In this document: positions 1-62,712 of the stretch, one piece after another
Numbering within the stretch: position 1 is the stretch's first letter
Layout of the letters: the number at the start of each line of letters is the position of its first letter
Origin: Pisaster brevispinus
Lineage: Eukaryota; Echinodermata; Asteroidea; Forcipulatida; Asteriidae
DNA: 64,000 nucleotides
Direction: 5' to 3'
Assembly (NCBI GenBank): GCA_023634235.1
Contig: JAMKCF010000041.1
Coordinates: 310,001-374,000 of the forward strand
Program-made: the position numbers and the translations under genes
Notes under the pieces: model-generated
What the model was told of the DNA's origin: nothing
Seen by the model: the letters and a program-made list of their open reading frames with translations, nothing else
Databases searched by the model: none

Positions 1-692
1 CCTGCCTACAAATTTACATGAATGATTACTTACATCACAAGAAATCTCCAATTGATAAAAAGGTAATTTACAAGCAGGTTGGTTTTGTCATCAAATACCT
101 AAATAGTGCTGTTGAAGGCCTGGAATTTCATCTTTGAGAGGGCGAGGCTATTTTCATTTTGCAAAGGGCACTTCCATTGGAAAATCTCAAAGTTTATGAA
201 AAATTTTGAAGGGGCGCCTAAGCCAAGACCAGGGGCAACAGAGGCCATGGCCTCAGTATAAATCCAGGCCCGAAAGTGATATCGTAAGTTATTCTTTAAC
301 AACAGACAGCAAAACAAGTGGAAATAAAATAGATCAACAGAAGAGTGTTTGAGATACTGGTCTCTTTTTAGGGATACAGAGGTTTCAGTGTAGAGTCAGC
401 ACTGCTCTGATTGGTTCCTCTGAAAGGAGAACTGTGGTTGGAGGGTTCAGGGTTGTTGTGTGGGTTGACCATTGTGTGTGAGTGCCTTGTGTAGTGGGGC
501 GTGTCAGTAGACTGTGGGATATCGGTGAAGTAGGGTGGTAGGATCGTGTGCCAAATATTGCTGATGAAATAGCCTGTGTCTTGAGGAACAGTGTTGTGTT
601 TACAGTTCTTAATAGCTTCTCTGATGTGATGGGTGTACCAGAGTTTCTCAGGAGCTATGATTCGAGTAAGAGGATTATGAAATATTACTCAC
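1..692. other. Intron of the GTF3C2-like gene; one dispersed repeat
   Basis: I found no exon here. Bases about 117-270 are a copy of a dispersed repeat (start GGCCTGGAATTTCATCTTTG), also present at 15914-16072, in part at 32368-32470, and more diverged at about 15595-15692. Its plus and minus readings make short spurious ORFs. Confidence 0.6.
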
Positions 693-3600
693 TTGCTTAG
701 TTGTTGTAGGTGCTCAAAAGCCCACAGCTGGATGGCTCCAGGGCAAGTATACGTCCTACTGACATAATGACACTCATCAAATGATCTATGGCAACCAATA
801 GCAGCGTACTCCGTTACAACGACCTGGCTGGGTGGACGTGGACACCAAGCTAGGCTCCATACTGGACCACCGACATAGAAACTCAGGCTGGATTTGCACT
901 CTGGTTAAACATAAGATATTGCATCTTAGGCAAACACAAAGTTGACATTTAGTACTTGACTAAATGTAGGTAGAGATGTAATCATGTAATTTTGAGAAAT
1001 ATTTGCTAAATAAATTTTTTTTTTTAAAAGTGCATTTACAGGAAAGGCAAATTAAGCATAACTATTCACAAAAAATTTACAGAAACTATAAAACAATGCT
1101 CCATAATGGACCACCGGTGTGTCAAAACTTGGGCTGGACTCAAGACTCCAATCCAACACCTGTTATTGCGTTGGTATTAATTGGGAAAATAAGAGCAAGT
1201 TCAATCAAGGACCAATGGTTAACTAGTGGTTGGTTCGTGATGTTCGCAGCGCATACTCACTGATGTTGAACTATGACCGACTCTAGTCGTGTCATGTCAA
1301 TGTGGTACCAAAAAATGGTGGTCGCCACTTTTTTTACATTTTTTTGACAAGTTCATATACAGATGAAAACGACATGAACGATGCTCAGGATATCAGCTTA
1401 GCTCACAAGTGGTAATGGACTGCGAGGGATGGAAGCTTGTTCTTTGGCCTTTCAGAGAAAGAAAAATTAAGCAAGAAACATTTCATGACTTTAGGTTTAT
1501 GTTTATATTACAATGTTTTAGTTTTTGTTTACCTGGCTGAGAAGGAAGTACTTCAAACAGTGCTAGGGATGAAGGTTCTCTGTCAGTCCAGCCTGAGCCT
1601 ATTGTGAATCTGATTGAGCGCACAACCTCTGGTAAATATTGCTTGGACTCACTGGGGTGGAAAACAAAACAGGGTTGAGCAATAATAATTGTTATCTTTA
1701 AGAACGCTTGAATCCTCGAATCTGATTGGTCAACCCTTAGCAAAAAGAGGTGTGATATAAACCTATCCCAACGGCCCAAATCACACCCAGCTTATTTTGC
1801 AGTTCTAACTCCACGCTTCGTGTTTTTTTTAAAGCCATACACGAAACATACAGCTGTTCCAACACTGCGTATTGTGTTAAGTTGCCCGTCAAGTTTGCTT
1901 GAAGATAAATTCGTCATCATATATACGCTTGATGAATTAAAAAGTACAGCACAGGTCATTTAAGATGAGCCCTGCTTTATTGTTAACCCTCACAAATTGA
2001 AAACACATTGTTTATCCTACCTTGAGGTCAGGTGGTTCCAGGATGACCAATCAACTGCAATCTCTTGACTTACATGAGTCTGGCCATCTGACAAACCAAA
2101 CCTCCTTCTTCTCCTAGAAAGAAGGACAAATCTCATAAATACAACCATTTGGAAATTTAACTCTGTCTAGATTATTCATATATCTAAAGTCAACACAACA
2201 TGGCCAGACATGGCTGATACTCATGATATAGCCCTACATACCTTCTTTTTTTCTTCCTTTTTTGGGGGAGGAATTGGGGTGGGGGTGGGGTCGGGCAAGT
2301 TGTTAGAATCAGAAGTTCAAATGAAACATATCATGAAGCTCTATCCTGTTTATTAAAAGTGGACGTAACCCCACTGTAAGCCCCGCCCACTGCACACAGA
2401 CTGGCTCCACTGATTACCAGAAGCCCATAGGAGTCACATGAAGCTAGTTTTTCAACAAATATTTCTGCAAGAAATATTTCAATTCAAATGCAACTTCTTC
2501 ACATATTGCTGTCGAGTATAGCACACCCTGTTTCATAAAGACACATGCAATTGCGAAGACTTTAAGGACAGCTATCCGTCAATGTTTTTTTACTCAACCA
2601 AACTTCAGAAAGTTGAACCAAAATCCTTCAAGTTCATTTGAGAATTATGACTTTTGTAAAATAGAGTAAACAGCATTGGTAGAATAAAAAATTCATTGTT
2701 TAATTTTAGTCTGAAAGCTTACTGATTATGAAGTAGAACCATTAGTAGAACCATTTTTGCTGAAAAAAAAAAAAAAAAAAAAACGCAACAACTGATTTCA
2801 GTTGTTAAAACCCACATTAAGGAAAATGTTCTACATGTACATGCTGAAAAGTGTGCATGGTTTTTCACTATTTTCTCCTGACTCACACAACGAATTCAGC
2901 CCAATTTTTACATGCTTGTTATTTCCTGTATATGATTGATCACACAAAACATGATCACGACTATTTTGTCAGCTCTACCAATCCTGTGTAATACCTTTAA
3001 TAATTCTTTTAAAAAAATAAATAAATAAAATGTATTTTTTGTTTTGCGTGTTAGCCCACAGCTCTTGGGGAGGACCCTGCCTGAGGTAGAGTTGTACTTA
3101 GTACTTACTCATTGTAGGCAAGCTTCATGAAGTGTGGTATGTGTGATGGGCTGGTGCTTTTGATTTCTTGTTGACATTTCTCCACTCTTGCTGATACCCT
3201 GTCTGTTTCATGAAGAAAATGACAATGAAAGCAATGTTAAAGTTTTTTTTTTTTTTTTTTTTATTGTTTTAGAAAGTATTATCCATTTTGGCCTCATTTT
3301 TAAAATATGTAAATGTGGTTAATTGCTTTTTATCACAAGTGATATTTAGCCCTCAAAAAAAATGAAGGTAAAGGGAATTGTAGACTTCCTAGGCCATTTT
3401 AAAATAATGGTTTTGTTGATTTTTCAGAGTGCACACAAATCAGAAATCAGATTAAAGTAGGAAGAATATCAATATCATTTCTGTATAAGTATACATTTAA
3501 CTATACTACTACTACTAATAATAATAACAGGTTCTTACAATGTATATAGCCATTTATCACACCCCTAGGGGCGTAACAAAGTGCTAATTATTTGTTTTTT

Positions 3601-4239
3601 AGCAGGACATGCAGACCTATCTTTTAAATTATGAGACCCATTTATGTAGCATCTCTAATGGTTTACAAGGTGCTGCGGCGATTTCAGCAGCCACTGCCAG
3701 AAACACCGGGGCAAACCCCTCCCCTTAGCAATAAGTGTAACTGGGTTCTTTTATGTGCATTACACAACACATGGAACCTACGGCTTGTTGTCCCATCCAA
3801 AGGACGAAGCAATAATGGTTAAGTGTTTTGCTTAAGGTCACAAGTGTCACGACCAGGACTTGAACCCACACTCTGCTGATCAGAAACACCGAAGCTTGAG
3901 TCCAGTGCCTTTGACCGCTCGACCAAGACACGCCACGGAAAACTATATGGAAAAACATGGGCTAAAAATATGAGTGGCGGCAGTTAGTGCAGTGTCCCAT
4001 TCCTTGAGAGATTCAAGATGGCGGAATTCATGAAACAGCTTATGCAAAAGTGCCAAATCACATCGTCTGTTCTTATTATGTATAAATATAATAAGAATTT
4101 GAGATTCACCTTTGGTACCTGGATTAGCTCCAGAGGTTTTCCTGCGTTTGTCACCTTCAAAATCGTCAGAATCCTCCTCATAATCCGTATCGTCCTCACC
4201 GTCATCAAAATCATCGTCACTTGATACATCTTTTATTTT
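693..4239 (-). CDS. GTF3C2: GTF3C2-like exons 11-14: acidic linker and start of the WD40 domain
   Basis: Exon 4110-4239 is an Asp/Glu-rich linker (SSDDDFDDGEDDTDYEED). Exon 3109-3202 encodes RVSARVEKCQQEIK and LAYNE. Exon 2021-2113 encodes RRRRFGLSDGQTHVSQEI. Exon 693-887 encodes LSFYVGGPVWSLAWCPRP and, at its end, GAIQLWAFEHLQQLS. The last exon aligns closely with human GTF3C2 around SFFTGGPLWALDWCP and LLQLWGLGTLQQ, which is the first WD40 blade. The exon 14 acceptor at 888-890 (CAG) was chosen because it keeps the reading frame of exon 13; an upstream CAG about ten bases away would break it. The rest of the propeller must lie left of base 1; I found no further exon in 1-692. Confidence 0.88.
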
Positions 4240-7200
4240 CTGTGAAAATCAAAAGTTATTTCTCTCATCATGTAAATTTTTCACTCTTGATAGAGAGACT
4301 GAAAAGTATGAAATTAAATGATCAGAAAAAACACGACAAAACCATTTAAAATTTGGAAGCCTACCATTTTACTGAAACTTGATAACACTGTTAAAGTTAG
4401 GGTCATAGATTGGTAAAGACTCAACAAATTAATGACCATAAAAACTTATAAAAACTATAAAAACCGCTGCTAAAATATAGGATTCGAACTGCCTGTAGCT
4501 ACTGGGCACTGTTAACAGTTCCTATAGAATTATGGGCAATTTCAGAGCCGTAAATTGAGAGAGTTGGGACATAGACAGATAGAGGGACCAGTTTTCAGAC
4601 TGGTCTGGCACCCTGTATTCGCCCATGCCTTGTTTTGTTTTTTGGGACACAAAATTACTTTTAATCGCAAGTTGTCGCAACTCTCCCAATACACGGCAAT
4701 TTACATACAGTGCACCCTCTATAGTTTGCCCAAGAGAGCCCATTTTGGTGGTGTACCAAGGGAAAAGTTAAGATTTGATACCTACCTGCTTATGTTTTTT
4801 GATGATATGAGCTCGCATTGATTTCCATCGTGTCATCATTTTACCGCACACCAAGCACAAAAACTGCCCACTATCAGCGTCTGGATTCTGGTGTGCAGAA
4901 TAAAAATATGCAACTCTTACATTCTGAGTTATCACACAAACACTCTTGGAATATGGAAATTAAATATAGGGCTTCTGCAGCCCTTATCGAAAAAAGGCCA
5001 AAGGCAGAGTTGGGTATGGGATGCAGATGTGCTATGTTCTTCCATATTCCACGAACATGCGTGTGATAATGAATATATATCTTCAAGCAAACTTGATGCA
5101 CCAATTAACGTAATACACAGTGTTGGAACAGCCATAAGTTTTGAGTATACTTAGCTTAAGATAGTACAATACGCGGAAATAGAACAGCGAAATACGCAGG
5201 GTGTAATAAGGGCTGTGTGATATGGGTCATGCAATACATTCTGCAGCATAGTCTGCAATATATTCTGCAGTATAGTCTGCAGTATATTCTCCCTTCCCCA
5301 AAACCCTTCAACATTACCTTGTAACACAGTATGCAGTATATGATCTGCAGTCCATTCCGCAGTATAGTCTGCTGTATATTCTGCAGTATATTCTGTTCTA
5401 TATCTGCAGTATATTCAGAAGTATAGTCTGCAGTGTAGTCTGCTGAATATTCTGCTCTATATTCTGCTGTACATTTTGCACCATAATCTGCTGTATAATC
5501 TGCTGTATATTCTGCAGTATATTCTACAGTATATTCTGCTGTATATTCTGCTGTGTATTCTGCTGTGTGTATTCTGCAGTACATTCTGCAGTATAGTCTG
5601 CTGTATAATCAGCAGTACATGTATATTCCCCCCTTCCCAAAATCCCTGCTATATTACCTTGTAACACGTGGTGTAATGGGACCTGAATAAAGACCAGCTC
5701 CTGAACATTTGGTGACATCCTTCCCAGGTGCATTCAACCTCTTCCCCATTCTCAATGGCAAGTCTGCATTTCTCAGTCATCCTACCAGTTGGCATCACGG
5801 ATGGAGTCCTGTACAGGGCCTGTTTGGGGCCAAGAATAAGAACTTTATCAACCTCCATGATTAAACCACCATTTTTGTAAAGTTTCCGTGTCCAGCAGTA
5901 ATGATGTCTACCGGTGTTCATCATACAACAGAGGAACCATACTATTTTTCCCCCTGCCTCAATTTGGCTGCATTGCTCTTGATTTGAAAAAAAAACCAAG
6001 ATGGCTGCACCATGTAAAAAATGTATGTTTTGCAGTGGCACAACAAGAGGGGGGAGCAGGCCCAAGTGAGATTGGAAAAACTAAACAAATGAATGGTTCG
6101 ATACACTAAATAACCCCCCCCCCCCCACCCCACAAAAACACAAAATTGTCATTGCCCCACTTCTCCCCAAAATGAAAATGTCTGGTAACGCCACTGCTGT
6201 TTTTTAACTACAGGTTGGACAGAATGTGGACCATTTCTTTTTGCCTTCACGCCTGCTTTACTTCTTATAAGAAAATTTGAAGGCACAACAAGATTTTGAG
6301 GAAATCCTGAAGTCAGGAAAAATCTGGAAAAATCCTTAGAAATCACACGCCTGCTAGTTAACATAAAATAGAGCCCTCTTGTGACAGCTATTGGTTTCAG
6401 CCACAATTTGCTCATTCACAATTTTGTTACAGGTTATTAAAGAAAAAGTATGATGTCCAAATTCAAAATGGTGTACCCAAAAGACAACCAGCTGCCCCAC
6501 TAGCTTAACACAACGCCTCTAGCAACTGGGCAATCTCGTCGGTCTAGTGGTAAGACATCTGCTCTAGAATTGCAACGGTCGTGGGTTCGAATCCCACCCA
6601 ATATGCCTGTGAATTTTGTCTTTCACAGGACTCTGGAAAGTACTGAGTAAACAGCGCTTCACACATTGGTGTATGGGTTAACCAATAATACAATGTGTGT
6701 AACTTACCTTTATTTTGTCGGTGAGGGTCCTGCCAGTCTGGGTGCTGCCCTCATCGTCCTTTAATTCCTTTGTCATGTTTTGCAGGTTGCTTATGGCTCT
6801 GCACATGAAGAAACACTAATTACAGTTAGTGAAAACTTAAAACTTGTGAATATGAATGGTTTCTTTCCCTGCCTTTCACCTCTGTGAGCCCCAGTTCGAA
6901 TCCCACCACAGATCACAGCCTTGCAAGTGGATTGGGTTTTCAGTCCCTACCTGATTGCAGGGGTGAGATTCAACAAATGTGAAAATTCCTGAACAAAGAA
7001 AGATTAGTTTATTTTCAGGAAACTTTTTGCAGAATCAGGGAGCTCTGTATTGATACAATAATATTTACCTCTGGGCTGCTTTTCGTTTGCCCCTCTCAGA
7101 GCCCTGGTCAGTCTCATCTGGCGTCTTAGTCGGAGTGACTTCCTCAGGAGGAGGGCCATGGCTGGCTTTCATGTGATAAATCAACCCCGCTTTACTGTAG

Positions 7201-10200
7201 TATACCTTGGCTGTAATTGTAGTTTCACGCACAAACTCGTCATCAATAATGTCAACGATTTCTAGGTGTATTAATTGCATCCGAATTAAAGGCAAAGTAT
7301 ACCTTTGGTTTTTGAAACCGTTCGATTGTTCTAATCCTATATAAATATAGACAAATACAATCAAACTAACCTGTGAAAACTAACCTGTGAAAATTTCATC
7401 TCAAAAGGTGGTAGCGTTTATGAAATACCACTGAATATCTGGAGTGGTTATCTTTGGCAGAAAGAATGATCCGTAATTGGAATACACCATCTGGGAAATG
7501 TTTCTGTCTGAGAAACATTTCATGCCTCAGATTGAAATGTTCTTGAATCCCTCTCTCTCCTTAGAAGAGAATTGTTTCTCACCATGTTACAAAAGCTGCT
7601 GTATTTCTTACCAAGTAAGTTTTTATTGCCATTAATTTTTGGAGTGCTTACCAAAGGTATACCCTCCCTTTAAACGAATATTCATTTTGGTTTTTCCCAA
7701 CACTGAGTTGTGATTGGCACTAAAAATTTCAGACATTTAAAGAAAACTTTCAATCTTGGCATTTTCTCTTTCCTTTAAATAATTCAAGTGACTTGTGACT
7801 TGGACTCAAACTCCATCTTTGTGATTGGTGACTCGGACTTGACCCAAACGACTTGTCGAAAGTTACCCAAGGCATTTGATATAATCAAAGTCAGTTCTTA
7901 TAAAATATTTTATCACACTCGAGGGCATCTCAAAGTGCTCATTAACGTTTCTCAGATTTTGGAATCCATTTCTTTAAAAACACATTCCTTAGGAGGGAGT
8001 CATTTCTCAAAATGTTGTTTATTGTCAACAGCTGCAATGCTTCTTTGCAATTAGTTTTTTTAGGTCATGAACTGTTGAATTAATAATTCTACAAGGTATG
8101 CAGAGCTATGTTTGAAATATAAGACCCATTACAAAGCAACATGTAATTGTTTACAAGGTGCTGGTTCAATCTGCAGCCAATCACATCAGAAAACACCAGG
8201 GCAAACCCCTTCTCTTAACAAAGTGTAACTGGGTTCTTTTACGTGCATTAATACACAACACATGGGACCATCCGAAGGACAAAGCAATAATGGTCAAGTG
8301 TCTTGCTTAAGGACACAGGTATCAAGACCGGGACTCGAACCCACACCCTGCTGACCATAAACACCAGAGCTTGAGTCTGGTGCCACTCGGCCACGACACA
8401 CCAAATGTGCATAACCTCACAAATTGACATACCACATATTTCACAAGTGAGTGCTTCAGCTTCTTTGCCGCATGATTTCTGATGATACTGAAAGCCTTGG
8501 TAGGTTGTGAAAGTCTTGGAGCAGCCTTCGTTCCGACATGCTAACTTGCCCATCTTCTTCAGTATCATCTTCATCTCAGCAGTATTAAGCTCTGTAGAAT
8601 CTGTGGCACTATTGTCTGAACTGGGCTGTGACAAAGACGAGAGGAAATCATAGAAGAAGGATTTTTAAATACAATTGGCAAACACTTCCAGGCCTGCAGC
8701 CTAAATCTGCCCTTTCCCAGGTTGTATCGTAAACTTATATATATAATGGCTATTTATATAGCGCTCATATCCGTCACTCAGTGACGCTCAAGGCGCTTCA
8801 ACATTAAATATTTTCCTGCAAGGTATTTGGGGGCTACTTTTGAAGTATGAGACCTACTCCTTTACATAGCACCATGTAATGGTTTACAAGGTGCTGTGGC
8901 GCAATATGCTGCCAATCAAACTTGGGTGAGACCCCCTGGCTATACAGCAGTTACAGGTAACTCCGAGCAAAGATAATGACAAAATAGGGAGATCACCAAT
9001 ATTAAGGCTTGATGGCTCACTTGGTAGAGCACCGGCCTGTAAATCCAGAGGTTGCAAGTTCAAGTCTCGCTGTAGTCAATTTTTCTTCGTTAACACAAAA
9101 TTGTTTGAAAATTAACAAAATGCTGGAGCCTTAGCCAAAGCCGTAATTTGGAAAAACAGGGTATCTGCACACTTTAAAAAGTCAAATTTAAGTCTTTTTA
9201 AGACCCTTTTTATGCTACACCAAAATTTAAGACCAAAAACAGGTGAATAAAGCTTGGGGAGAAACAGCTACAACTTCTCAGATTTGTTTACTTTTTTTAC
9301 GTGCAGTGTTATTTGATTCTCTTTGAGCTGATAGGAAATTCATATGCTTTGGCTAATTTTTTTAAGACCTCAAATGACTGTATTTAATACTTTTCAATGC
9401 TTTTTAACCCTCCTAAAATCGATGCCTTTTTGAAACAAGTTGATACACCATTTGAAACCATTCAAGTGAATGGTTTTGAATGGTGAGATAACTGTGCACA
9501 CAGTTGGTTCCCCAAATGGTTTTGAATGGTGGTGCAGCTGGTACAGAATCCTATGAGGATTGTTTTAAGTGGTGCATCAAGGATCCCACTATGTCATGAC
9601 TTTGAGTGATACCAGGCGGTGTGGGGTTGATCGATCTGACCCTGGCTACGAGGTTACCATACACTATGTCATAGACACTACAGGATTTGTTTAACAGCTT
9701 GCTGACCATCTGAAACCATTCGGCTATGGTAATGCAAACAGGTACAGTGTATGCACAGCTCAAAAGCATCTGAATGGTTTTGAGTGGTAGTACAGCTTAT
9801 AATCAACACTGCTCAAATGGTACAGCCATGTGTGTACAAAAACGATGGGGTTGTCAAAGTTAGTGAATTTTGAATGGTTTTGAATGGTGTATCAGTAGAA
9901 GGGTTAAGGCCTTAAATTTGCATAGTTCAATTTAAGACTCTTTAATACTTTTTAAGGATCCGCAGAAACCCTGAAAAAGGCATAAGATTGGGGCCACACC
10001 GTTGTACATACATACCATGTCATGATGTGAGGTCATGAGGTGGTACTTCATTCCAGACGCGGATTGGAGTTCTTTCTGACAATGACGGCATGTATAACTG
10101 GAAGGCTGAAAGGTCAAAACACATACCGAGTACAGAGGTCAAATGGGAAAGTCCACTGTGACTCACATTTCATGAAGTAAAACAATTTTTGTGTGTGCAT

Positions 10201-13200
10201 GTTACATATGATAGACAAATATTGGATGCATGTGAGTGCATTGTCGCAGAAGATAATCACAGAGTGAGATCTGGACTGTTCCAGATGGGAAAGCCAGATT
10301 TCACTGAGTGACATGTTTTGTGACAATGCAAGAACGAAATGCATTCAATATTTCTTTTATATAACACACTTGGATCTTTGTCATTAAAATTTGTTTTCAC
10401 AATAAATAGAAAATAGACACAGACACTCATCCACTCTATACTCTGAAAATTCTAAAAACCCTTGAAAATTGTTAACAACCTCGACGACTCCATGTAGACA
10501 CCAACGGGCAGGGACGATTATTTTGAAAACCACAATGCGAGGTTTTGCTGCTAAGTTTCTTAAGTGTCCTATATTTAACAGTATAGGACTCCAATATTAA
10601 ATTTTGAAATGCCTCGCATCACAGCAGTAAATATATGGCAAAATAAAGTATGACATGTGGCGCGTGTTCCACCGATGGATGGATAGCACACGACGTCATT
10701 GACCGCCATCTTTGATGACAAACAATGGAAAAGTGCACGTGTGTACGCACTGCGCATGACTCTCAGCCAATGGTAGTCGTTCACGCGAGCACGCTTAATC
10801 AAGGATGGCGGCCAATGCAAGGGGCAAATCAAATGACAAGAATCTTTTTGGTGGTACATAAATGTATTTATTTTGAATTCAGATAAAACTTTACTGACCC
10901 TTTTGGAGGAGCATTGTTTGAAGTGTGCCAGCATAGATTCCATATAGCGTCGTCTGCAGTAGCACAAGGAGCACTTTGCAAAGCCTCCTTCTCGGAACTG
11001 AACTTCCCACAATGCAATCTGAACTGTATACTCTTTCTGGTCCGCTTTACCTGTTAGTAAACATAATAAAAATAACTAGACATAAGTTTTTATCGAAACA
11101 AAAACAAGGTGTTTGGTGTAGACATGTTCAAATTAGCAGAATTGGTGAAATGCATTGAGAATATTTCGTAAAAAAATTATTGTAGGAAATATTGGGTGTC
11201 GTGGCCTAGCGGATAAGAGCACCGAACTCAAGCTCTGGTGCTTCTGTTCAGCAGAGTGTGGGTTCGAATCCCGGTCGTGACACTTGTGTCCCTGAGCAAG
11301 ACACTTAACTATAATTGCTTCTCTCCACCCAGGGGTAAATATGGGTACCTGTGAGGGCAGAGATGGTTCTTGTGATTGATTTAGCCGAGTAGCGCATTAT
11401 TTGTTGCACAGGCTGTATACTCCCCAGGGAGCTGAGATGGTTTAAGGAATGAATTAAGGCCCAGTGACCAGGGATAATAATGTCAGAAGCGCTTTGAGAC
11501 GCCCTTCAGGTGTGAAAAGCGCTATATAAAAACGGGTTATTATTATTATTATTATTGACATAAGAGTTTAGTTAATCGTGGTTCTAAGTATTTTAGTTTT
11601 TGAAATCAGAAACTTTGATTAAGCCTAATTTGAAAACCAATGACTAGCTAAATTCTAATCCAGACATTGAGACTTATAAGTATGTGCTTAGTTTCAATTT
11701 GTTTAAAGTTGCAACAGATTTTCAGCAAAAAAGTACATTTTTAAAACATGTCACAAGAGGGCAGTTAAGAATGATGACATCGTTATAATAATACTTGGTT
11801 CTTATTTCACAAAGAGTTAAGATTGATCTTAAGTGCAAATCAATCTTAATTGCTAAGCAAACTGTGATGTCACAATACAAATCACCATGGTAATACTAAC
11901 AACTCATCTTAAGACGAATCTTATTGCTTTGTGAAATGGACACCACATACCCTAGTAGCTAGATTAAGGTGCTTTACAAAATGTTTATCCCAGTTCATCG
12001 GGCATACTTTTAGACCAATCCTCAAACTTTCTCAACTCCCTGGGGAGCATACACCCCCAAGATGTTCAATTTAGCACTAAGGGATTAATCCAACACAATA
12101 CTGTATCTGCCTTCCCAGGTTCCCATTTATACACCTGGGTATGAGAAGCTTTATATAATACTGATGGGCCTGGAGGTAGCAGGGGGCTTCGCTCCTCTTC
12201 TGATGTCACCCGGCTGATTGTTCCGTGCTCCAAAAGGAAGGCTGGGGACAATTCATTCTCTGTTGTTGCCCCCAGATTGTGGAACGAGCTACCATGTGCT
12301 ATCAGGGAGGTGGCATCTACTGCGACCTTCAAGCGCCAACTTAAAACTCACCTATTTCCCAGCTTATGATATGTTTGTTTTAATGCATTTTCTTTATTTA
12401 TTTGAATTTAATTTATGATGTTGATTGTGAGGCGCTGTGTTCTTTGTAGAGCGCCAATTAAATGCCTTGTATTATTATTATTATTATTAGAGCGCATATC
12501 CTAGTAGCTAGATCAAGGAGCTTTACAACAGTATTATCCCAGTTCATCTCGCATACTTTTAGACAATTCCTCTAACTTTCTCAACTCCCTAGAGAGCAAA
12601 CAACCCTAAGGGGTTAATCCAATACAATACAATTTCAACCTTTTGGGTTCTTATTTCCACACCTGGGATAAGAGAAGCAATTTGTTCACCCATTTTTGAC
12701 TCAAAAAATGGCAGACCAGATAGGCACGTGTAAGTGCGCTGCGCATTGTGCAAGAGGTCTAGATATAAAAACTAGTTCTCATTGTTGCTGTTACTAACTG
12801 ACTTACTCAGACTAATTGTTGTGGGAGTCTTGCCCTGAGACTCAATTTCCTCTTCAGTTGAGTTTTCCTCCACCTCTGCCTCAGCTTGTCTCGTCCGCCT
12901 TCCTGTCCGTCTGCCTGAACCCATCGTCTTATCTTTGCATGAAATGAAGAACAATGTATAACAGATTAGCAGTTGTGTCATGTGATAATATTTTCTTTTG
13001 TATTGCTGTGGGTACGTTTTTCGCGGCTGTAACCAGGGCCCAATTTCATAGAGCTGCTTAAGCATACAAATTTGCTCAGCACATTAAAATTTTGCTTACC
13101 AGAATAAGGTTACCAGCCAAACTACCATGTCACGTGTACAATTTGTGACTTGTATCCTGCTCATTTCTGCTTAGCAGGAAATTGTTAAGCACTATTTTCT

Positions 13201-16200
13201 GCTTAAGCAGCTCTATGAAATTGGGCCCTGTGATTAACCAACGGCCAAGGCAACCGAAACAGTTATTGGTTACGACCGCAAAAACGCACCCTGAGTAAAT
13301 TGTTCTTATAGGAATGGGAGGGGATACCTTTGGTAATTACTCCAAAATAAATGACCATAAAAACTTACTTGGTAAAAAGCACGGAGAGCTGTTGATATTT
13401 TAAAACATTGGTAGAAACGACACCCTTTGTAGCAAAGTAGTTTTAGAGAAAGAAGTAATTTTTCACCCAAAAATCTGATTCTGAGAAAGTCTTCAAGCAT
13501 GAAGCCCTTCTCAAGCTATTGCAAGCACACAATTCTATGCAACATGGATTTTTTCTGTTTTTATTGTTTTGCAACCTCGATGGCCAGTTGAGCCCAAATT
13601 TTCACAGGTTTGTTATTTGATGCATACATGTATGTTGGGATACACCAAGTGAGGATACTGGTCTTTGACAATTACCAAAAGTATACCCTGCCTTTAATTA
13701 TCAACTGCTGTGGAGTAGACTGGGAATTGGAAAACTACTGAGTTCACAAAAGATACAATACAGCACAGTGACTTCCATAGTGAGTTACTTTCGTTAAACT
13801 GTAACTTAACCTACTGTTTTTGGTGTCTTTTCTCTATGAGCAGGTGCATTTTGCTAGTTTTCAAAGTTTGCATTTTGTTAGCCACTCACCGAAGGAGAAA
13901 ACTGATCGCAAGATATGAAATCCAGCAAATAAGTAAACAGTGATGAAAAAAACTCACTTAGGGGTAACTTTCATTACATGGTCTTGATACCAACTTCAAG
14001 ATATTCCATTCACTTCTATGAGCTAGAGTACTAAAAAAGTTACCCTGATATGAAAGTTTAAACAGACACTTGAAAGGCTAGTATTTCCATTAAATATTAA
14101 AAAAATGAAGCAAAGGATGAGTTCATAAATTTGCACTTCTTAAGCACAATAGTGGCGAGTGCTGTGCATCAAGACAATATTTATGAAACCAAATTCAGAT
14201 GAGAGATAAATTTGACAAATAACTGTCTGTTTCATATGCCTTGGGGTTTACGCAACATCAGATGATGTTTAAAGTGTATTATGTATTTTCACATTTTTAA
14301 GGCCATGTCCATGTTTTCGTGTAATTACCCTTAAATTGTAGGTATTTTTATTGAATCCTATATTGAGTCCTAAGCTTAAATGGCTTCCGACTGGCACCCC
14401 TCAACAAAGATATTGACAAAACAGGGAGACAGCCAACTAAGGGATACTAGCTTAGTTGGTAGAACCCCAGCACGTTAATCCGGAGGTCGCAGGTTCAAGT
14501 CCCGCTCTAGTAAATTTTTTTTAGTTCAACTTAAGATTATTTGAAAATTTACCCAGTTTCCCTTGTGGTTTACTACTTCAGTACTGTGTGTAGGGTGTCA
14601 TGTGGCCGAGTGGTTTAGAGCATCGAATTCAAGTTTCGATGGTTAAGTCATCGGGGTGTGGGTTCGAATCCCGGTCGTGACACTTGTGTCCTTGAGCAAG
14701 ATGCTTTACTATAATTGCTTCTCTTCACCCAGGGGTATAAATGGGTACCTGCGAGGGTAGAGGTTGATATTGTGTTTGAAAAAGCCTTCAGAGCGCCACG
14801 GCAGCCCAGGCTGTATACTCCCCAGTGAGCTGAGAAAGATTACAGGAATGTTATTGGCCCAATGACCAGCAGCCGATTTCACGAAACACTAGGATTAATC
14901 CTATCTCGAGTTAGGACGAGTAACTAGTCCTAACTTAGGATTAATCTTAAGGTTTACATGTTACAGTGCAAGGCTGGGACTCGTCCCAAGTCCTAAGAAT
15001 AATCCTAAGTTAGGAAGAGTTTGGTGAAATCGACGGCAGGGCACTAATGTAAAGCGCATTGAGACGTTATTGTGAAATGCGCTATATAAGAACTAGTTAT
15101 TATTATTATTATTATGTGTACATGTGGATAAAGAATCATACTGTGCTCACCTGACTTTCCTCTGCCTCCACCTCTACCTCTGCCCCTCCCTCTTCCTCGT
15201 CCCCGCCCACGTCCTCGACCCCTCCCTGGTGTCTTCCTTTGACCTCTCTGTCGACCTGCACTGCCTCGTTGTGTGTCTGTGTACTCTACGTCACTTCCAG
15301 ATGAATCCTCAGAATAACTGCTGGCTGGAAACAGAATAGGTCCAAAATGAAACTGGTTTGCTAAGAGTAAAAGTACAGCGAGTTCTAAGATTTGACCAAT
15401 GGCTCAGATGACTTTTTGTGACGCTAGGTGGCAGCAGACTTACCACGTAAATTAATTGTTCTCAGAAAACGCACATGCTCAGAACTACGTAAACAAAAGA
15501 AATTAACCTGGCAAGTCTGCTGCCACCAAGCGTTCCAAAGTCTCCCATTGCCTCCACAGCCTAGAACTTGGAACCCAAACAATCTGGATTTCTAACGGAA
15601 ACACCATTTTTAAAATATAAGCCTCAGTTCCACATCGAAGGGGCACTACGCTCAAGACCAGGGCAATTGAGGCCAGGGTCTCCGTGTAATTCCAATCACT
15701 GCTCATTTTAATGAAATATGGAATTGTGAAAAAGCTGGTGGACTAGTGAAATGACAAGGTAATTGGTCCCAATGAGCATACTTGCACTAGGAATTTAAAT
15801 GTAAGTTGATGTAATGTATAAGACAGCATTGCCCAGTGGTCTGCTGGCTTGACGACCAATCCAAAAAAAATAGGCCAAGTGGTCCAGCTGGACCAATTCA
15901 AGCATCCTCATTCAGGCCTGGAATTTCATCTTTGAGAGGGCAAGGCTAATTTCATTGAGCAAAGGGCACTTCCATTTGAAAATATGAACGATTTGAGAAT
16001 ATATTGAAAGGGCACAAAGGTCAAGACCAGGGCAATGGAGGCCATGGCCTTCGTATAATTCCAGGCACTGCTAATTTTAAAGAAATATGGACTTTTTAAA
16101 GTGGCCTAGTAAAATGACAAGCTGGTTCCACTAGCTAGTCACTGAAAAAGCTTTAAGAGCAAACCCCGATACTCACGTTGTTCCTCATCCTCTAGAGTAG

Positions 16201-16597
16201 CATCTTCATCAACTGGTATCCTTCTTGAGATTTGTCTTGATCTTCTCCCTCGTCTTGGCTCAGTTCCTTGCCCTCCTCTTAATCCCCTACCCCTGTTCCC
16301 GCCCCTCCTTCCCCTTCCTCTCCTTCCACTTCCTTTGTTTCCTTGGTCTCCTCCCTCATTTTCCTCAGCAATGTCTTCCGTGTGGTCATTGGCATCAGGT
16401 GCTAAGACTCCATCACTTTCTCCGCTGTCACTTTCTGCATTGTGGGATGCTCCGTCTAAAGGAGTTTGGTCTTTGCACAAAGTTAGGCTTTGCTTCTCGG
16501 AAACTTTATCGTCTATCCTGCTCTTTTTGCAAGGCTGATCACCAAACTTAGAGGGCGCCCTTGTCTTCCTCTTGGGTCTTGATGAAGGGGACTCCAT
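693..16597 (-). CDS. GTF3C2: GTF3C2-like TFIIIC subunit with N-terminal ZNF512-type zinc fingers (3' end outside window)
   Basis: Fourteen exons in transcript order: 16177-16597, 15151-15324, 12807-12932, 10899-11050, 10016-10105, 8433-8625, 7069-7210, 6708-6798, 5658-5819, 4786-4887, 4110-4239, 3109-3202, 2021-2113, 693-887. All have AG acceptors and GT donors, and every junction phase agrees, giving 721 residues before the left edge. Layout: acidic and RG-rich N-terminus (1-240), six zinc fingers (267-549), acidic linker (about 552-594), then the beginning of the GTF3C2 WD40 domain (about 657 on). GTF3C2 (TFIIIC110) belongs to the factor that recognises the internal A/B-box promoters of tRNA genes and acts in the nucleus. 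The start at 16597 has a good Kozak context (AGG before ATG, G after). Vertebrate GTF3C2 lacks the fingers and vertebrate ZNF512 lacks the WD40 part, so this is either a fused gene or the ancestral form. Homology assignments are from memory of the human proteins. Confidence 0.9.
3508..3937 (-). mobile_element. tRNA-derived SINE (family S1), reverse orientation
   Basis: Read on the minus strand it starts with a tRNA-like head whose B box is the complement of CTTGAACCCACACTCTGC at about 3859-3880 and ends in an (ATT)n tail (3508-3530). The same family is seen at 8093-8402, 11195-11556, 14594-15113, 43478-43737, 49958-50216 and 60896-61232. Confidence 0.75.
4786..11050 (-). CDS. GTF3C2: GTF3C2-like exons 4-10: six-finger ZNF512-type array
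   Basis: The fingers alternate in type. F1 (267-287, exon 10899-11050) is C-x2-C-x12-H-x3-C. F2 (297-318, exon 10016-10105) is C-x2-C-x12-H-x4-H with the core SGMKYHLMTSH. F3 (351-373, exon 8433-8625) is C-x4-C-x12-H-x3-C. F4 (382-403) is C-x2-C-x12-H-x4-H, split by the intron between 8433 and 7210. F5 (493-515, exon 5658-5819) is C-x4-C-x12-H-x3-C, and F6 (528-549, exon 4786-4887) is C-x2-C-x12-H-x4-H. Human ZNF512, as I remember it, has the same six fingers in the same order with the same alternation of CCHC and CCHH ligands, and the same leader before F3 (ILKKMGKL here). Between F4 and F5, exons 7069-7210 and 6708-6798 encode RKAAQRAISNLQNMTKEL, a motif found in both human ZNF512 and human GTF3C2. 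Confidence 0.9.
4927..5074. mobile_element. Short MITE with inverted ends
   Basis: Left end TTATCACACAAACACTCTTG and the right end, read on the other strand, TTATCACACGCATGTTCG are inverted copies; both continue into GGAATATGGAA. No coding content. Confidence 0.6.
5222..5625. repeat. Degenerate 10-bp tandem array beside GTF3C2-like exon 9
   Basis: About 40 imperfect copies of a roughly 10-bp unit (ATTCTGCAGT) on the plus strand, interrupted near 5280-5330. The interruption repeats the sequence that follows the array (CTTCCC, then CCTTGTAACAC), including the start of the exon-donor sequence at 5651-5670. Reading the array on the minus strand gives the repetitive peptide TAEYTAEY, which is not a gene. 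Confidence 0.8.
6533..6690 (+). mobile_element. tRNA-derived SINE fragment (family S3)
   Basis: A-box-like TCTAGTGGTAAGACATC and B box GGGTTCGAATCCC stand at tRNA spacing (6539-6595). There is no acceptor-stem pairing and related copies (reverse) lie at 45880-46025 and 61440-61640, so this is a SINE rather than a tRNA gene. Confidence 0.65.
7280..7676. mobile_element. MITE family M1 copy
   Basis: Ends are inverted copies: AAAGGCAAAGTATACCTTTGG at the left and ACCAAAGGTATACCCTCCCTTTAA at the right. Other copies are at 13311-13698, 26045-26425 and 44468-44858, with degraded relatives at 2690-3000, 32915-33230, 33280-33860 and 34325-34545. The family's internal sequence contains TTACTTGGTAA and TGAGAAAC blocks. 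It starts about 70 bases from GTF3C2-like exon 7. Confidence 0.75.
8093..8402 (-). mobile_element. SINE family S1, reverse copy next to exon 6 of the GTF3C2-like gene
   Basis: B-box complement GGGACTCGAACCCACACCC at 8331-8349 and the family text GGACACAGGTATCAAGACC mark it. It ends about 30 bases before the donor of exon 8433-8625. Confidence 0.7.
8705..9085 (+). mobile_element. Composite of SINE pieces (family S2 with other SINE sequence)
   Basis: Begins with CCCAGGTTGTATCGTAAAC, has an internal insert carrying TATATAGCGCTCATATCC and GGCGCTTCAAC, then the tRNA-like head GGCTCACTTGGTAGAGCACC and B box GGTTGCAAGTTCAAGTCTC. Cleaner S2 copies are at 14395-14520, 25310-25520 and 59420-59605. Confidence 0.6.
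9157..9973. mobile_element. hAT-like non-autonomous element with a nested MITE
   Basis: Ends CAGGGTATCTGCACACTTTA and, on the other strand, CAGGGTTTCTGCGGATCCTT show the CAGGG start typical of hAT transposons. The inner part 9404-9907 has its own inverted ends (TTAACCC near 9404, GGGTTAA at 9901-9907, with GATACACCATT inside) and repeats GAATGGTTTTGAATGG. I could not find a clear 8-bp target duplication. Confidence 0.6.
10380..10670. repeat. Dispersed repeat, second copy at 58590-58895
   Basis: Shared blocks include GACTCCATGTAGACACCAA and TATTAAATTTTG followed by GGCAAAATAAA. The order of blocks is the same in both copies; no protein is recognised in it. Confidence 0.6.
11195..11556 (+). 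mobile_element. Full-length SINE family S1
   Basis: The head GTCGTGGCCTAGCGGATAAG has an A-box, GTGTGGGTTCGAATCCCGG is the B box, then the family body (CTTGTGTCCCTGAGCAAGAC; GTACCTGTGAGG; GCGCTTTGAGACG), the end GCGCTATATAAAAACGGG and a (TTATT)n tail. The best reference copy in the window. Confidence 0.85.
11806..11943. mobile_element. MITE family M2 copy
   Basis: Inverted ends ATTTCACAAAGAGTTAAGAT and, on the other strand, ATTTCACAAAGCAATAAGAT. Other copies: 31456-31602 and 47641-47791, and a fragment at about 46783-46905. Confidence 0.75.
12181..12369 (+). pseudogene. LINE (CR1/L2-like) ORF2 C-terminal fragment
   Basis: A 62-codon open frame ending in TGA encodes FSVVAPRLWNELPCAIREV and FKRQLKTHLF, the conserved C-terminus of CR1/L2-type reverse-transcriptase proteins. 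The rest of the LINE is absent (typical 5' truncation). The 3' end runs to about 12485 with GCGCCAATTAAATGCC and an (ATT)n tail. Confidence 0.85.
12807..16597 (-). CDS. GTF3C2: GTF3C2-like exons 1-3: charged, RG-rich N-terminal tail
   Basis: Exons 16177-16597, 15151-15324 and 12807-12932 encode residues 1-240. No folded domain is visible. The first exon begins MESPSSRPKRK, is rich in Lys/Arg, then has a long Asp/Glu/Ser stretch and an Arg-Gly segment around residues 88-120. Exon 2 has a short acidic Ser stretch and then a nearly pure RG repeat (about residues 169-196). Exon 3 has GSGRRTGRRTR followed by a glutamate-rich run. Human GTF3C2 also has basic, low-complexity N-terminal sequence of AT-hook/RGR flavour. 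RG repeats of this kind usually bind nucleic acid and are arginine-methylated; that role is inference here. Reverse-strand readings of these exons make leucine/serine-rich shadow ORFs on the plus strand. Confidence 0.85.
13036..13228. mobile_element. MITE family M3 copy
   Basis: Starts GGGCCCAATTTCATAGAGCT and ends with its inverse; the next bases (GCTTAAGC) are palindromic. Other copies at 24057-24288 and, degraded, 50505-50693. Confidence 0.8.
13311..13698. mobile_element. MITE family M1 copy
   Basis: Left end GGGAGGGGATACCTTTGG, right end ACCAAAAGTATACCCTGCC; the internal text matches 26045-26425 block by block. Confidence 0.75.
14594..15113 (+). mobile_element. SINE family S1 split by a MITE (family M4)
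   Basis: The SINE head (14594-14690), body and tail (GCGCTATATAAG then TTATT repeats) are all present, but the body is cut at 14870-15040 by a MITE with ends GCAGCCGATTTCAC and, inverted, CCTGCCGTCGATTTCACC. Another M4 copy, not nested, is at 60361-60522. Confidence 0.8.
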
Positions 16598-22283: not shown

Positions 22284-23198
22284 CACCACTGATAGTGATA
22301 GAGATCAGTGGTGTACAGCCACTGATAGATCAGTGGGTACAGCACCCCTGCAAGTGGCACTAGCAGTAGTAAGTGCAGTAGTGCAGTGTATAGGGCAGTA
22401 GTGCAGTGTGTTCTCTTTTTCTGCATGATCGTCGATGCCAGGGGTCGATGCCTGCTCTGTTGAAAAAGCGCCCTCAAGTGTTTGTTCAATGACACCCAGC
22501 TGGACAAGCACAACATCAACTTCCGTCTACCAAGCACCAAATACATGTACTAAAGGCTGGCTGGCCTGACTAAAGTAAGTCTTAGAAGGCCTACACAACG
22601 CCACAGTTTGGTCATAATACACCGGAACAAAGCTGAGCTGAGGTAATTGTGCTGAACTTTCTGAAGTTCAGGACGTGTGTTACACTGTTAGTGTCAATAG
22701 TAATACTCGGCTAACTAGACCACTTCTACTCTAGACTAGACAACTGTGTGTGTGACTGTGAAGTTGTACTGCTAACAATCAATTATCAATATCATGCCTC
22801 GCTCTGTAGAATGTAAAAATAAATAATATATATAAATTTAAAATATAGACCCAGTACCCAGTAACTGGGGTGCTAAAGCTTCTAGCAGAGCGAACCAGAA
22901 GGCTACCCTCTATGAGGATAGCGGAACGAACCTCTAGTCTTTAGTCTTAGTTCTAGGACTAAGGCAGTAAGGAGAGTAGTACAGTCAGACAGTAGTTAGT
23001 TGCGATAATCGTAACCCACCATCTTTATCGCAACTCTACGGGTAGCACTTAGTAGTAGCAGCCAGAGGGTCACCTTTTTAATATTTTATGTCGGTGACTC
23101 ACTTTTCATGTCTCTGTTCTTTAACCATCGAAATGCTTGAAGTTGAACTGAAGATTTAAATGTTTTGAGATTTCAGATGACTGGATGGTTAGTCAAGA
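22284..23198. other. Upstream region of gemin7 with a perfect-arm hairpin
   Basis: No coding sequence. Bases 22998-23035 form an 11-bp perfect stem (AGTTGCGATAA / TTATCGCAACT) with a 16-base loop. The stem and loop sequence recurs at 36504-36531. The 22290-22420 stretch is made of short repeats of CAGTAGTGCAGTG and ACTGATAG. A non-coding first exon of gemin7 is likely here. Confidence 0.5.
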
Positions 23199-23516
23199 AT
23201 GGATGAGACCAAACAGCAGGAGGACAGGACTTTCCTCAGAGAGCGATTTATAAAGACTCTCCTTGCAATGTCAGGATGTAAAGTGACCTTTGACCTCCAG
23301 GAGCGGACATCTGTGCGAGCTTCATTTGGCACATCTGATGTGGACATTCTACGCTTTCAAGTGTCGGACTTGGAAACACCGATTGGAGTACAGGAGCAGG
23401 CTTTACTGAGATGTTCAGACATTCTTTCCTTGGAATGCGAGATGGGGCCACAGCGAGAAACATCCTCAAGAGACGACTCATTGTCCAGTTCGAGGACGAC
23501 AGAAAATGTTGGATGA
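23199..23516 (+). CDS. GEMIN7: Gemin7, Sm-like subunit of the SMN complex
   Basis: A 105-residue intact ORF in one coding exon. Residues about 14-80 match human Gemin7 strongly: LRERFIKTLLAMSGCKV, SVRASFGTSDVDI and TPIGVQEQALLRCSDIL correspond to the Sm-like fold. Gemin7 pairs with Gemin6 as an Sm-like dimer and helps the SMN complex load Sm proteins on spliceosomal snRNAs in the cytoplasm. The protein is shorter than the human one (about 131 residues) because it lacks the long proline-rich N-terminus; the C-terminal Ser/Glu tail is its own. The start is fixed by an in-frame TAG at 23190-23192. A likely 3' splice site (TTTCAG, ending 23176) precedes it, so a 5' non-coding exon lies upstream, probably near 22900-23060. 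An out-of-frame ATG at 23177 opens a nine-codon uORF whose TGA overlaps codons 2-3 of the gene. The gene is divergent from GTF3C2 and convergent with the ABHD gene. Confidence 0.93.
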   Translation: MDETKQQEDRTFLRERFIKTLLAMSGCKVTFDLQERTSVRASFGTSDVDILRFQVSDLETPIGVQEQALLRCSDILSLECEMGPQRETSSRDDSLSSSRTTENVG

Positions 23517-31000: not shown

Positions 31001-34000
31001 AACAGATGGATACACCTTATCTGAAGGTTAGATCAAGGTAGGTCTGTATGTCTGTACAATTTTGTGCACAAAGTTTAAGAGCGAAAATATTTTTCAGCCC
31101 ATCCAAAAAAATTAACCTTCACAACTCTGGGGCCTGACCCCCCTCCCCAACTTTTTTTTTGAAATGTGGAATGCTCCAGTCTATGATTTCAAGGACTTTG
31201 AAAACAACAGCTTTTTTTTCCACAAGACAGACATAAAAAGTCAGAATTCAGATAAAAGTCAGAAGTTTCTCATTCCTGTAGGTGCAAAAAAACTGCGCAA
31301 CAGTCAAGTATACACAGCACTGCTATGGTTACCCTGAACTTCCAATCGCAGCAAGCTTGTGCTTTGGGAGCCCAAGCAAGGTCGGACCCAAAGAGGTCAA
31401 GGTCACCTGACCTATGTGGACATACTACGCAGGGACACCGACATTGCGACAACAGGGGCCGATTTCACAAAGAGTTAAGATTGATCTTAACTGTGCATCA
31501 ATCTTAATTGTTAAGCAAAGTGTGATGTCACAATAGAAATCACTATGGTGATGCTGACAACTCATCTTAAGATGAATCTTAGTGCTTTGTGAAATCGAGC
31601 CCAGTTGAAATATCTACATGCATGAAGGACAGGGAGATCTAGGGACACTTCTCCCGTGACATCTTTGGCCGAAGACACCTCTCGAAACAGAAGGAGTAAG
31701 ACTTACTTGGCCAACACCCGTGTGAGTTCTCGAGTCAAGAAGCGATTGAAGAGGATGAGATTCACAGGAGTCTCGAGTGACTCTGTGGACTTCATGGTGT
31801 TCCAAGCCACAGACACCGTCATGGCTGCCTTCAGCGGTGTCTCCCTGCCAACTTTAGCCAGGTAGTTAAACAAAATGATCCTGGAAAATAAGAACAGAAA
31901 TGTATTATTGGTCATGCTGATGATGACTGCTCTATGTTCTGACGACCCTGTGCTCTGACCATTGGCATAACCAGAGGGGGACAGGAGGCCACTTCTCCTT
32001 CCCTCTGTCCGGTAGCCTGGATCTTCCTGTCAACAAGTTACTCACCCCCCAATAGAGATGCCAACAGCTATGATTGGTGCCTCTGGATATAAGCCGTGGA
32101 CATGTTTGATGACATACTCTAGGTCCTCAGTGTTGGCAGCACAGTAGGTCCTAGGTGTCTAAAAACATAGATCAGAAACACAACTCTCGTAAACTAAATT
32201 AAGCATATTTTATATTTTTCTGTTATAGACCTTATGCATATGACGTCATTTGAGTAGGGCGCCCTCTCCTAGAGGTCAAAAGGACGTTGTTCATTGGCCA
32301 ATTCTGTGCACCGCTCGTACAAATCTGTGCGTTTTCCATTGTTTCATCACCAATTTACAACTAAGATGCCTGGAATTTCATCTTTGAGGGGCAAGGGTAT
32401 TGTCATTGTTCAAAGGGCACTTCCATTGGGAAAATCTAATAGTTTCTGGGAAATCTGAAGGGGCACTTGAAATACAACCAGCGGAACATGCAATCCGCCA
32501 TTTCGCGGAGTCCAAAATTTGGTTCTACAAAACAGTGGGCCGTGTCATGAAATTACACAAAAACCATACAATTTTAAGAAACATTTATGTGAATCATTAT
32601 ATTCTACTTTTGAAATATCTTTCCAACCATATTCATTCATAACAAATGCTTTTTATAGCCCAAAGTACCCAATCCGAAGGCAATGTGACCTTTAATTGAT
32701 TGCACATCATGGGAGTGGTGTTTCTCACCTTAATAACGGCACCACCTAGGCCTCTGTAGTTGAACACTACAGACCGGTACCCATGTTTCATCAATGCCTT
32801 GTTCATGTTCAGGCAGTAATGACTTTTACTTGACCCTAGAAAAGAAGAAAACAATCATCCAAAGAGAAAAAAAAGACAATGCTGTAAAACAAGAGAAGTT
32901 CATCTTTGAAAAAAAAGCTTACTGAAAGCTTACTGATTATGAAGTTCATACTAGAACCATTTTTCTTTGAAAACATTTCCCTCTGAAAGGAAGTCACACT
33001 GGAGAAAACTGTATCTGAAAACTTTTATTAAGAACAATGTGTTTACATGGCTGTAAATTGTGCAAGGTTTTCTCAAAATTGCCTCCCGACTCACATAAAC
33101 GGATTAAGCCCAAATTTTCACAAGTTTGTTATTTCATGTATAAAGTCAATCAAACAAAACGTGAACACTGTCCATGATGTCTGTGACTATTTTGTCAGCT
33201 CTACCAATCCTAGTACCTTCAACTGCAAGGTCACATGTTTTTACTGACCATCGGAGCCCAGGATCTAGGGTTAAATGTTCTGCAAGCCTTACATCAACAT
33301 AAACAAATGAACAAAGTAAATGAAGAAATTAAAGTATTTCTGTTCATAGACACCCTGTTTCATCAGTCATTTACATGTAAGTGTACTGTCAGTGGACAAT
33401 TTGGATAATGAGTTTTTAAATTTCCAGCAAATTTGACCCTTTTACCAAATCATTGCTAAAACCTTGTTTCTGTTCTCACAACAGTGTGCTTCACCTGTTG
33501 TGGTAAAAACTTTAAAGATTCAGTTTTGCCTTAAATTCAAAGGATGTGTGCAATATTGATCAGAATGAAGCTTTAAATGTCGACAGATTTGCACTTGACT
33601 TACACGGTATGAAAATGTTCACGGTGGGAAAACTGCCCTTGAAATAGTTTTGCTTGAAATTCTTCAAGAAACAATTAGTGTTGTATTATGAGTCCAAAGC
33701 CTTGGATGTTTGAGAGCAGGTTTTCACTATTTTCTATTGACTCCAGTGACCGATTGAGCTTAAAACAATCACAGATTTTGTTAATTCATGTATATGTTGG
33801 GTTACATGGTAAAATGCAGATAGTAGTCTTTGACAATCACCAATATTGGTATTATGGGTATCTACGGTTTTTTTTATTGGAAGAGAGACCAAATAATTCT
33901 ACTCCACAGTTCAGACACTGTCGTGGAATGATTGACAGGGGACTTGACATGAACGCCAAGGCGGTCAGGAGAAAAACCGAACTGATTTACCCGTTATTCC

Positions 34001-43477: not shown

Positions 43478-43737
43478 TATGCAAGTCACCAGACACACAA
43501 GGCCTGAAGGCCACTTCAAGGTGTGGGCTACAATCAACTATTGGGTATCATCCATCAGAAGCCTGGCTGGTAGAGCAGAAAGCACTACCTCCCCAACTTT
43601 ACGAAGTAATCATGGTTAAGTGTTAAGTGTCTTGCTTAAGGACACAAGTGTCACGACCGGGACTCGAACCCACACTCTGCTGATCAAACACCGAAGCTTG
43701 AATCCGGTGCTCTTAACTGCTAGGCCATGACACGCCG
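43478..43737 (-). mobile_element. SINE family S1, reverse copy
   Basis: CGACCGGGACTCGAACCCAC is the reverse B box; the copy ends with the complement of GGCGTGTCATGG at 43726-43737. Confidence 0.75.
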
Positions 43738-62327: not shown

Positions 62328-62404
62328 CTAGAGCAAATGAAATACAAATATGTAAAAAATACTGGAATGGCTTTTATAAAAATCCCAAGTCCACGGATGT
62401 GATA

Positions 62405-62712
62405 GGCTGTTGAAAGCTTGCGAGCGTGAAAGCTTGAGAGCGTGAAAGCTTGCGAGTGTGAAAGCTTGCGAGCGTGAAAGCTTGCGAGCGTGAAAGCTTG
62501 CAAGCTGGAAAGCTTGCGAGCGTGAAAGCTTGCGAGTGTGAAAGATTGCGAGCGTGAAAGCTTGCGAGCGTGAAAGCTTGCGAGCGTGAAAGCTTGCGAG
62601 TGTGAAAGCTTGCGAACGTGAAAGCTTGCAAGTGTGAAAGCTTGCGAGCGTGAAAGCTTGCGAGTGTGAAAGCTTGCGAGTGTGAAAGCTTGCGAGCGTA
62701 AAAGCTCACGAG
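62405..62712. repeat. 16-bp minisatellite, about 19 copies
   Basis: Unit GAAAGCTTGCGAGCGT with few variants (GAGTGT, GAGAGC, CAAGC). Because 16 is not a multiple of three, all minus-strand frames stay open and give spurious Arg-Lys-Leu-Ser repeats. It starts about 78 bases upstream of SNF exon 62183-62327. Confidence 0.93.

Follow-up and report, generated by a model that had tools for sequence, protein, structure and literature searches.

In the sea star Pisaster brevispinus, one continuous predicted reading frame joins a zinc-finger array of the ZNF512 type to the WD40 propeller of GTF3C2 (TFIIIC110). Judging from the sequence, we consider it probable that this gene is the animal's GTF3C2, that it also encodes the ZNF512-type fingers in the same frame and that the vertebrate pair GTF3C2 and ZNF512 came from a gene of this kind.

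The window, by which we mean the whole stretch of 64,000 nucleotides that was analysed (C41:310001-374000, contig JAMKCF010000041.1), belongs to an assembly of 549.7 Mb in 512 contigs, and the adjoining 40 kb were analysed as well. The complete gene model has 23 exons and 3,942 coding bases including the stop, encodes 1,313 aa, stays in phase and ends in a terminal stop. Its in-window part runs from 16597 to 693 on the minus strand and comprises 15 exons with matching phases, 0 internal stops and 765 residues. Read from its N-terminus, the product passes through an RG-rich region, three C2HC/C2H2 finger pairs, of which fingers 4 and 5 flank a basic-helical motif, and an acidic linker, and then covers most of the WD40 domain of GTF3C2 (Table 1). 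The initial annotation had described fourteen exons with consistent phases, leading from an RG-rich N-terminus through six ZNF512-type fingers into the first GTF3C2 WD40 blade; these parts are all present, on the minus strand and in an unbroken frame, and the phases do agree, but the window holds fifteen exons.

Table 1. Exons of the fused gene, in the order of the product (window coordinates; C41 coordinates in brackets where the exon leaves the window).
Feature	Position	Strand	Basis
Exon 1: start codon, RG-rich basic/acidic N-terminus	16177..16597	-	ATG frame after upstream in-frame stop; donor 3.8
Exon 2: RG/GR repeat region	15151..15324	-	phase 1 to 1; donor 6.7
Exon 3: basic/acidic linker	12807..12932	-	phase 1 to 1; acceptor 0.7, donor 1.9
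Exon 4: finger 1 (C2HC)	10899..11050	-	alignment to ZNF512 2ctd and KIAA1196 2gqj
Exon 5: finger 2 (C2H2), ZNF512-type	10016..10105	-	PF21367 ZNF512_zf-C2H2, E 5.9e-6; 2ctd
Exon 6: finger 3 (C2HC), beginning of finger 4	8433..8625	-	colinear with human ZNF512 (provisional sequence)
Exon 7: remainder of finger 4, first part of basic-helical motif	7069..7210	-	best PF00096 stretch spans exons 6-7
Exon 8: remainder of basic-helical motif (AISNLQNMTKEL)	6708..6798	-	common to human GTF3C2 and ZNF512 (provisional sequence)
Exon 9: finger 5 (C2HC)	5658..5819	-	colinear with ZNF512 (provisional sequence)
Exon 10: finger 6 (C2H2)	4786..4887	-	colinear with ZNF512 (provisional sequence)
Exon 11: acidic linker, net charge -10	4110..4239	-	phase 0 to 1
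Exon 12: bridge between finger part and GTF3C2 part	3109..3202	-	sole phase 1 to 2 candidate in gap
Exon 13: segment before WD40 domain	2021..2113	-	acceptor 7.9, best of those listed
Exon 14: segment before WD40 domain	1533..1651	-	aligns with human GTF3C2
Exon 15: first GTF3C2 WD40 blade	693..900	-	score 133 against GTF3C2 381-460, 0/2000 shuffles
Exon 16: start	1..5 (C41:310005-309305)	-	phase 2 to 1; GCIWDMKWCPSG matches GTF3C2 463-482

Exons 16-23 lie, all but five bases, beyond the window, and the model runs to C41:297076 on the same contig. Exon 16 takes over phase 2 from exon 15, and splice sites chain the downstream GTF3C2 matches to exon 15. Exon 17 was started at 308961, which retains a GTF3C2-like stretch (308928 has the better splice score), and exons 20 and 22 were picked by splice score and phase. 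Exons 22 and 23 draw support from their junction, because AIHK on one side and ACYNPNLGTHTWLLSGGQSG on the other together meet human GTF3C2 letters beginning AIHK.

Homology to human GTF3C2 extends over most of the propeller. When human GTF3C2 was compared by tblastn with the 40 kb adjoining the window, residues 463-482, 495-517, 528-578, 575-626, 624-675, 710-737 and 842-869 were matched in order on one strand, and over the whole gene GTF3C2 389-482, 495-737 and 836-869 follow one another in order on a single strand. BLASTP with the full product, in whose model some exons were selected with GTF3C2 homology in view, aligns residues 963-1213 with GTF3C2 495-737 (E 3e-36), 536-796 with 222-482 (E 8e-24) and 1262-1295 with 836-869 (E 1e-8), and it also recovers the motif (E 1e-4). 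For the segment encoded by exons 12-14 against GTF3C2 296-395, 15 of 2000 shuffles attain the observed score. The product matches the Pfam WD40 family (E 2.9e-7) in the part that starts at the end of exon 16; WD40 families likewise match human GTF3C2. Human GTF3C2 (8cli_C) and the sea star protein share the WD40 propeller, the segment before it, an acidic linker and the upstream basic-helical motif, but the human protein has no zinc fingers, whereas in the fused gene the propeller part comes after some 550 residues that include six fingers. A further difference is an insertion that belongs to the fused gene: exon 16 contains a long S/T/Q/A-rich imperfect repeat of KQETTSADAS-like units, which breaks the propeller at a point corresponding to the interval from GTF3C2 482 to 495.

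The six fingers read as three pairs, each a C2HC finger followed by a C2H2 finger. The human ZNF512 sequence used for comparison is a provisional one, of which the PDB confirms only residues 141-224; the motif letters lie outside that range. Against this provisional sequence the fused-gene product gives a pairwise BLASTP E of 9e-43 over 374 columns, colinear across all six fingers. A 524-aa product running from the fingers into the WD40 domain, searched with phmmer against 177,635 PDB sequences, finds human GTF3C2 first (8cli_C, E 2e-12), ZNF512 second (2ctd, E 7.4e-11) and KIAA1196/ZNF512B third (2gqj, E 9.2e-8) among 29 sequences at E up to 1. Pfam recognises three C2H2 stretches in the product, with PF21367 (ZNF512_zf-C2H2) at 26.8 bits, just under its cut-off of 27.

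The fused gene and human ZNF512 have in common three C2HC/C2H2 pairs arranged alike, with the motif placed after finger 4 and before finger 5 in both (the human letters outside 141-224 being provisional). PF21276 (ZNF512_C2HC), which scores 108.8 bits on the provisional human ZNF512, has no match in the window at E up to 1 and leaves finger 1 of the fused gene unmatched, and the N-terminal region of the window gives no signal against ZNF512 61-152 (shuffles reach the score in 1754 of 2000 trials). ZNF512 ends after its finger array in a basic tail and has no WD40 domain, whereas the sea star frame continues into the GTF3C2 propeller. ZNF512B shares the pairing of an atypical C2HC with a typical C2H2 finger but, as described in PMC11602157, the pairs number four and a long internal region carries a NuRD-interaction motif, with no WD40 domain in that description. 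Its finger pairs are reported there to bind DNA and to oligomerise, and the main text makes no mention of TFIIIC or GTF3C (PMC11602157). A scan of viral contigs with fingers 1-4 gave 36 pattern matches and 0 relatives.

The assembly holds, among the matches listed, no second locus comparable in either fingers or propeller. The human GTF3C2 propeller (509 aa) matches five places; three are in the fused gene, the best being exon 15 (E 6e-8), and the other two listed stand at E 0.21, so that the best GTF3C2-type locus of the animal's own genome is the fused gene. Human ZNF512 (318 aa) matches at least 31 places at E up to 10, of which, among the matches listed, the best is exon 6 (E 1.4e-6), the second lies at C1:29918437 (E 0.0019, 27% identity, in a 659-aa open frame), the third is another exon of the fused gene (E 0.0028) and the remainder are weaker. 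With the six fingers of the window (310 aa) as query there are at least 28 places at E up to 1; seven are in the fused gene (9.6e-37 to 1.9e-11), and the best two of the other 21, as listed, reach 5.9e-4, one in a 476-aa and one in a 735-aa open frame. Given the length of their open frames, we read these other finger places as probable ordinary multi-finger genes. Because all six subunits of yeast TFIIIC are described as essential (PMC4490372), a sole GTF3C2 locus would have to supply the TFIIIC function.

The basic-helical motif of the fused gene, ERGKRKAAQRAISNLQNMTKEL, lies between fingers 4 and 5. It is interrupted there by a phase 2 intron, which falls within the R codon that separates KAAQ from AISN. 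That the motif has counterparts in both human ZNF512 and human GTF3C2 had been proposed; alignment finds both, the GTF3C2 sequence being confirmed in the PDB and the ZNF512 letters being provisional. The product of exons 7 and 8 aligns with GTF3C2 1-300 at a score of 72, which 0 of 2000 shuffles reach. The part in exon 7 adds a side stretch against 8cli_C 161-217 that, at 7.3 bits, is not significant alone. In a direct comparison of the provisional human ZNF512 with human GTF3C2, no region aligns better than the motif, with 44.7% identity over 47 columns (E 3.9e-5, against 0.016 for the next alignment), and among 175 ZNF512 tiles those covering the motif score up to 74 against a maximum of 44 elsewhere.

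The yeast counterpart of GTF3C2/TFIIIC110 is tau91 (Tfc6), which appears fifth and sixth of seven with a profile built from the window motif and ZNF512 (E 1.4) and is absent at E up to 10 from both profiles that include GTF3C2. Its segment, picked as a hit, gives scores that shuffles reach in 0 of 5000 trials against the window, 74 of 5000 against GTF3C2 and 568 of 5000 against ZNF512.

If a fused gene is simply cut in two, the motif cannot end up on both sides of the cut; a duplication of the whole gene followed by complementary loss of propeller and fingers can leave it in both products. Since both vertebrate proteins keep a motif that lies here between fingers 4 and 5 of a single gene, we infer that GTF3C2 and ZNF512 descend from such a fused gene by duplication and complementary loss. 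The evidence favours an ancestral fused gene that was later duplicated and split in this way. We lean, by somewhat better than an even chance, towards the wider proposal that in early bilaterians TFIIIC110 carried zinc fingers, and that its vertebrate copies kept the propeller as GTF3C2 and the fingers as ZNF512 and ZNF512B. Cattle ZNF512 and GTF3C2 share a 1.1 Mb island, ten genes being listed between them (PMC9602073), and in human, ZNF512 is described as lying 3' of GCKR (PMC3613411). The proximity of ZNF512 and GTF3C2 fits a local duplication followed by rearrangement, without proving it. In the literature searched, no link of ZNF512 with TFIIIC was found; the papers there naming ZNF512 and GTF3C2 together concerned other subjects only, and none was found that combined ZNF512, pericentromeric and zinc finger.

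It is also possible, though we think it unlikely, that the bilaterian ancestor had fingers and propeller in separate genes, which became joined in the sea star lineage alone, the likeness between the vertebrate motifs being older or accidental. Pfam finds no zinc-finger family in human GTF3C2 at E up to 1, and yeast tau91, a chain of 672-685 aa in the PDB, is not known to have zinc fingers, so fingers and propeller must have met at some point; a joining in one lineage would be a simple event, and the fused state is seen here in one lineage. This history must nevertheless account for a human GTF3C2 that carries the very motif found in ZNF512 between fingers 4 and 5. Two motif-bearing genes, once joined, should moreover leave two copies, and the fused gene has one detectable copy: a second was sought in exons 11-12 and not found there, shuffles reaching the score in 782, 712 and 976 of 2000 trials. 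Human GTF3C2 itself offers no demonstrable trace of fingers, either in residues 206-300 against fingers 5-6 (231 of 2000 shuffles) or in residues 91-165 against fingers 1-4 (1453 of 2000), and its residues 61-165 match ZNF512 61-140 at a score that 107 of 2000 shuffles reach. The interpretation in the initial annotation, descent of both vertebrate genes from one such gene, is partly supported. In its favour are the continuous frame, the shared motif and the lack of a comparable second locus among the matches listed, and the vertebrate linkage of the two genes fits it.

A candidate for such a remnant, the SKAELLLL stretch of human GTF3C2, was considered and is unproven: shuffled fingers reach its score in 417 of 5000 trials as a 14-mer and in 1386 of 5000 as a 20-mer. 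As a 24-mer, which runs into the spacer, it is reached in 72 of 5000. The stretch stands 38 residues before the motif, and the equivalent spacing is 37 in the window and 42 in ZNF512.

Another reading accepts the fused gene as real and ascribes the motif in vertebrate GTF3C2 to chance or to convergence on a basic stretch followed by a helix. We judge it quite improbable. One ground for it is the weakness of the window-to-GTF3C2 match against 5000 locally shuffled decoys, where the window motif gave 0.0056 and the best decoy 0.0094, a narrow margin (for ZNF512 the figures were 0.0019 and 0.043 for its own best decoy). Lone queries are also weak: the 37-aa window motif finds nothing in the PDB, and the ZNF512 segment finds GTF3C2 first of two at only E 0.35. 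Set against these is a leave-one-out profile, made from the window motif and provisional human ZNF512 without GTF3C2, that ranks human GTF3C2 first among 177,635 PDB sequences (E 2e-4; next 0.23), and in the shuffle tests of the motif 0 of 2000 shuffles reached the score in each of four comparisons.

In the joining of fingers and propeller into one gene, exon 12 is the weakest piece. No other exon in the 2 kb gap fits in phase, frame and splice score, against a chance expectation of 0.1-0.3, a figure based on 40-kb counts of 2 and 6 candidates for the two strands, with splice-score thresholds set after the exon's own scores were known. Exon 12 shows no significant homology and its codon score is neutral; it rests on phase and splice score. 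From the sequence, we would expect a single transcript to span the junction. That two neighbouring same-strand genes, a ZNF512-like one followed by GTF3C2, were wrongly joined seems very unlikely. Such a reading could point to exon 12, to AATAAA at 3265 and 4237 and to a pair of very short pieces, 3128-3109 and 2546-2527, as alternative starts. Against it, phases agree over 23 exons, exon 12 is the sole bridging candidate, exon 13 begins at the best acceptor listed, and exon 11 (charge -10) is acidic like the part of human GTF3C2 that follows the motif (-13), whereas the tail of provisional ZNF512 is basic (+11). Human GTF3C2 carries the motif, and a GTF3C2 gene standing apart here would be without it.

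TFIIIC is a basal factor of RNA polymerase III, and from these homologies we infer that the product of the fused gene is a TFIIIC subunit in which the fingers have a role. In the human complex, the WD40 propeller of TFIIIC110 is described as packing on TFIIIC90 and holding DNA beside the B-box (PMC11811891). Through its WD40 propeller the 1,313-aa product would take a place in tau-B of TFIIIC, and its three C2HC/C2H2 pairs may add contacts with DNA or nucleosomes at tRNA-type promoters, so that a protein with both propeller and fingers could anchor TFIIIC more firmly on DNA or chromatin. If this is right, a TFIIIC110 with a built-in finger array would give TFIIIC a new means of holding on to DNA or chromatin, and would account for the origin of ZNF512 and ZNF512B, little-studied chromatin proteins. 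On the wider proposal these two would be estranged TFIIIC subunits, and their binding to chromatin may derive from, or even now involve, TFIIIC sites at tRNA genes, SINEs and extra-TFIIIC sites. Whether vertebrate ZNF512 proteins meet TFIIIC or its sites thereby becomes a testable question.

The surrounding sequence holds several further features. A probable GEMIN7 gene adjoins the fused gene (open frame 23193-23513, plus strand; Pfam Gemin7 PF11095, E 2.6e-28). Exon pieces of an alpha/beta hydrolase lie at 32045-34111 on the minus strand (PF00561, E 2.7e-8 on three joined pieces with one letter added), which we take to resemble ABHD1/ABHD3. The cattle island that holds ZNF512 and GTF3C2 also includes ABHD1 (PMC9602073), so the linkage may be old. 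At 38190-38381 (minus strand), a cysteine-rich piece weakly resembles the Tesmin/TSO1 CXC domain (PF03638, E 0.087, below the cut-off).

Four tRNA-Leu(CAA)-like sequences, at 3844-3934 (minus), 11196-11283 (plus), 14597-14683 (plus) and 43648-43736 (minus), are probably tRNA-derived SINEs; three of them lie in introns of the fused gene, and the intron where fingers and propeller join holds one of these three. A tRNA-Ala-like sequence is found at 45944-46019. In intron 9, at about 5340-5620 on the minus strand, ATACAGCAGA-like units form an imperfect array with more than one open frame, and a tandem repeat of SHSQAFTLASFHARKL-like units at about 62255-62734 is open in all three minus-strand frames.
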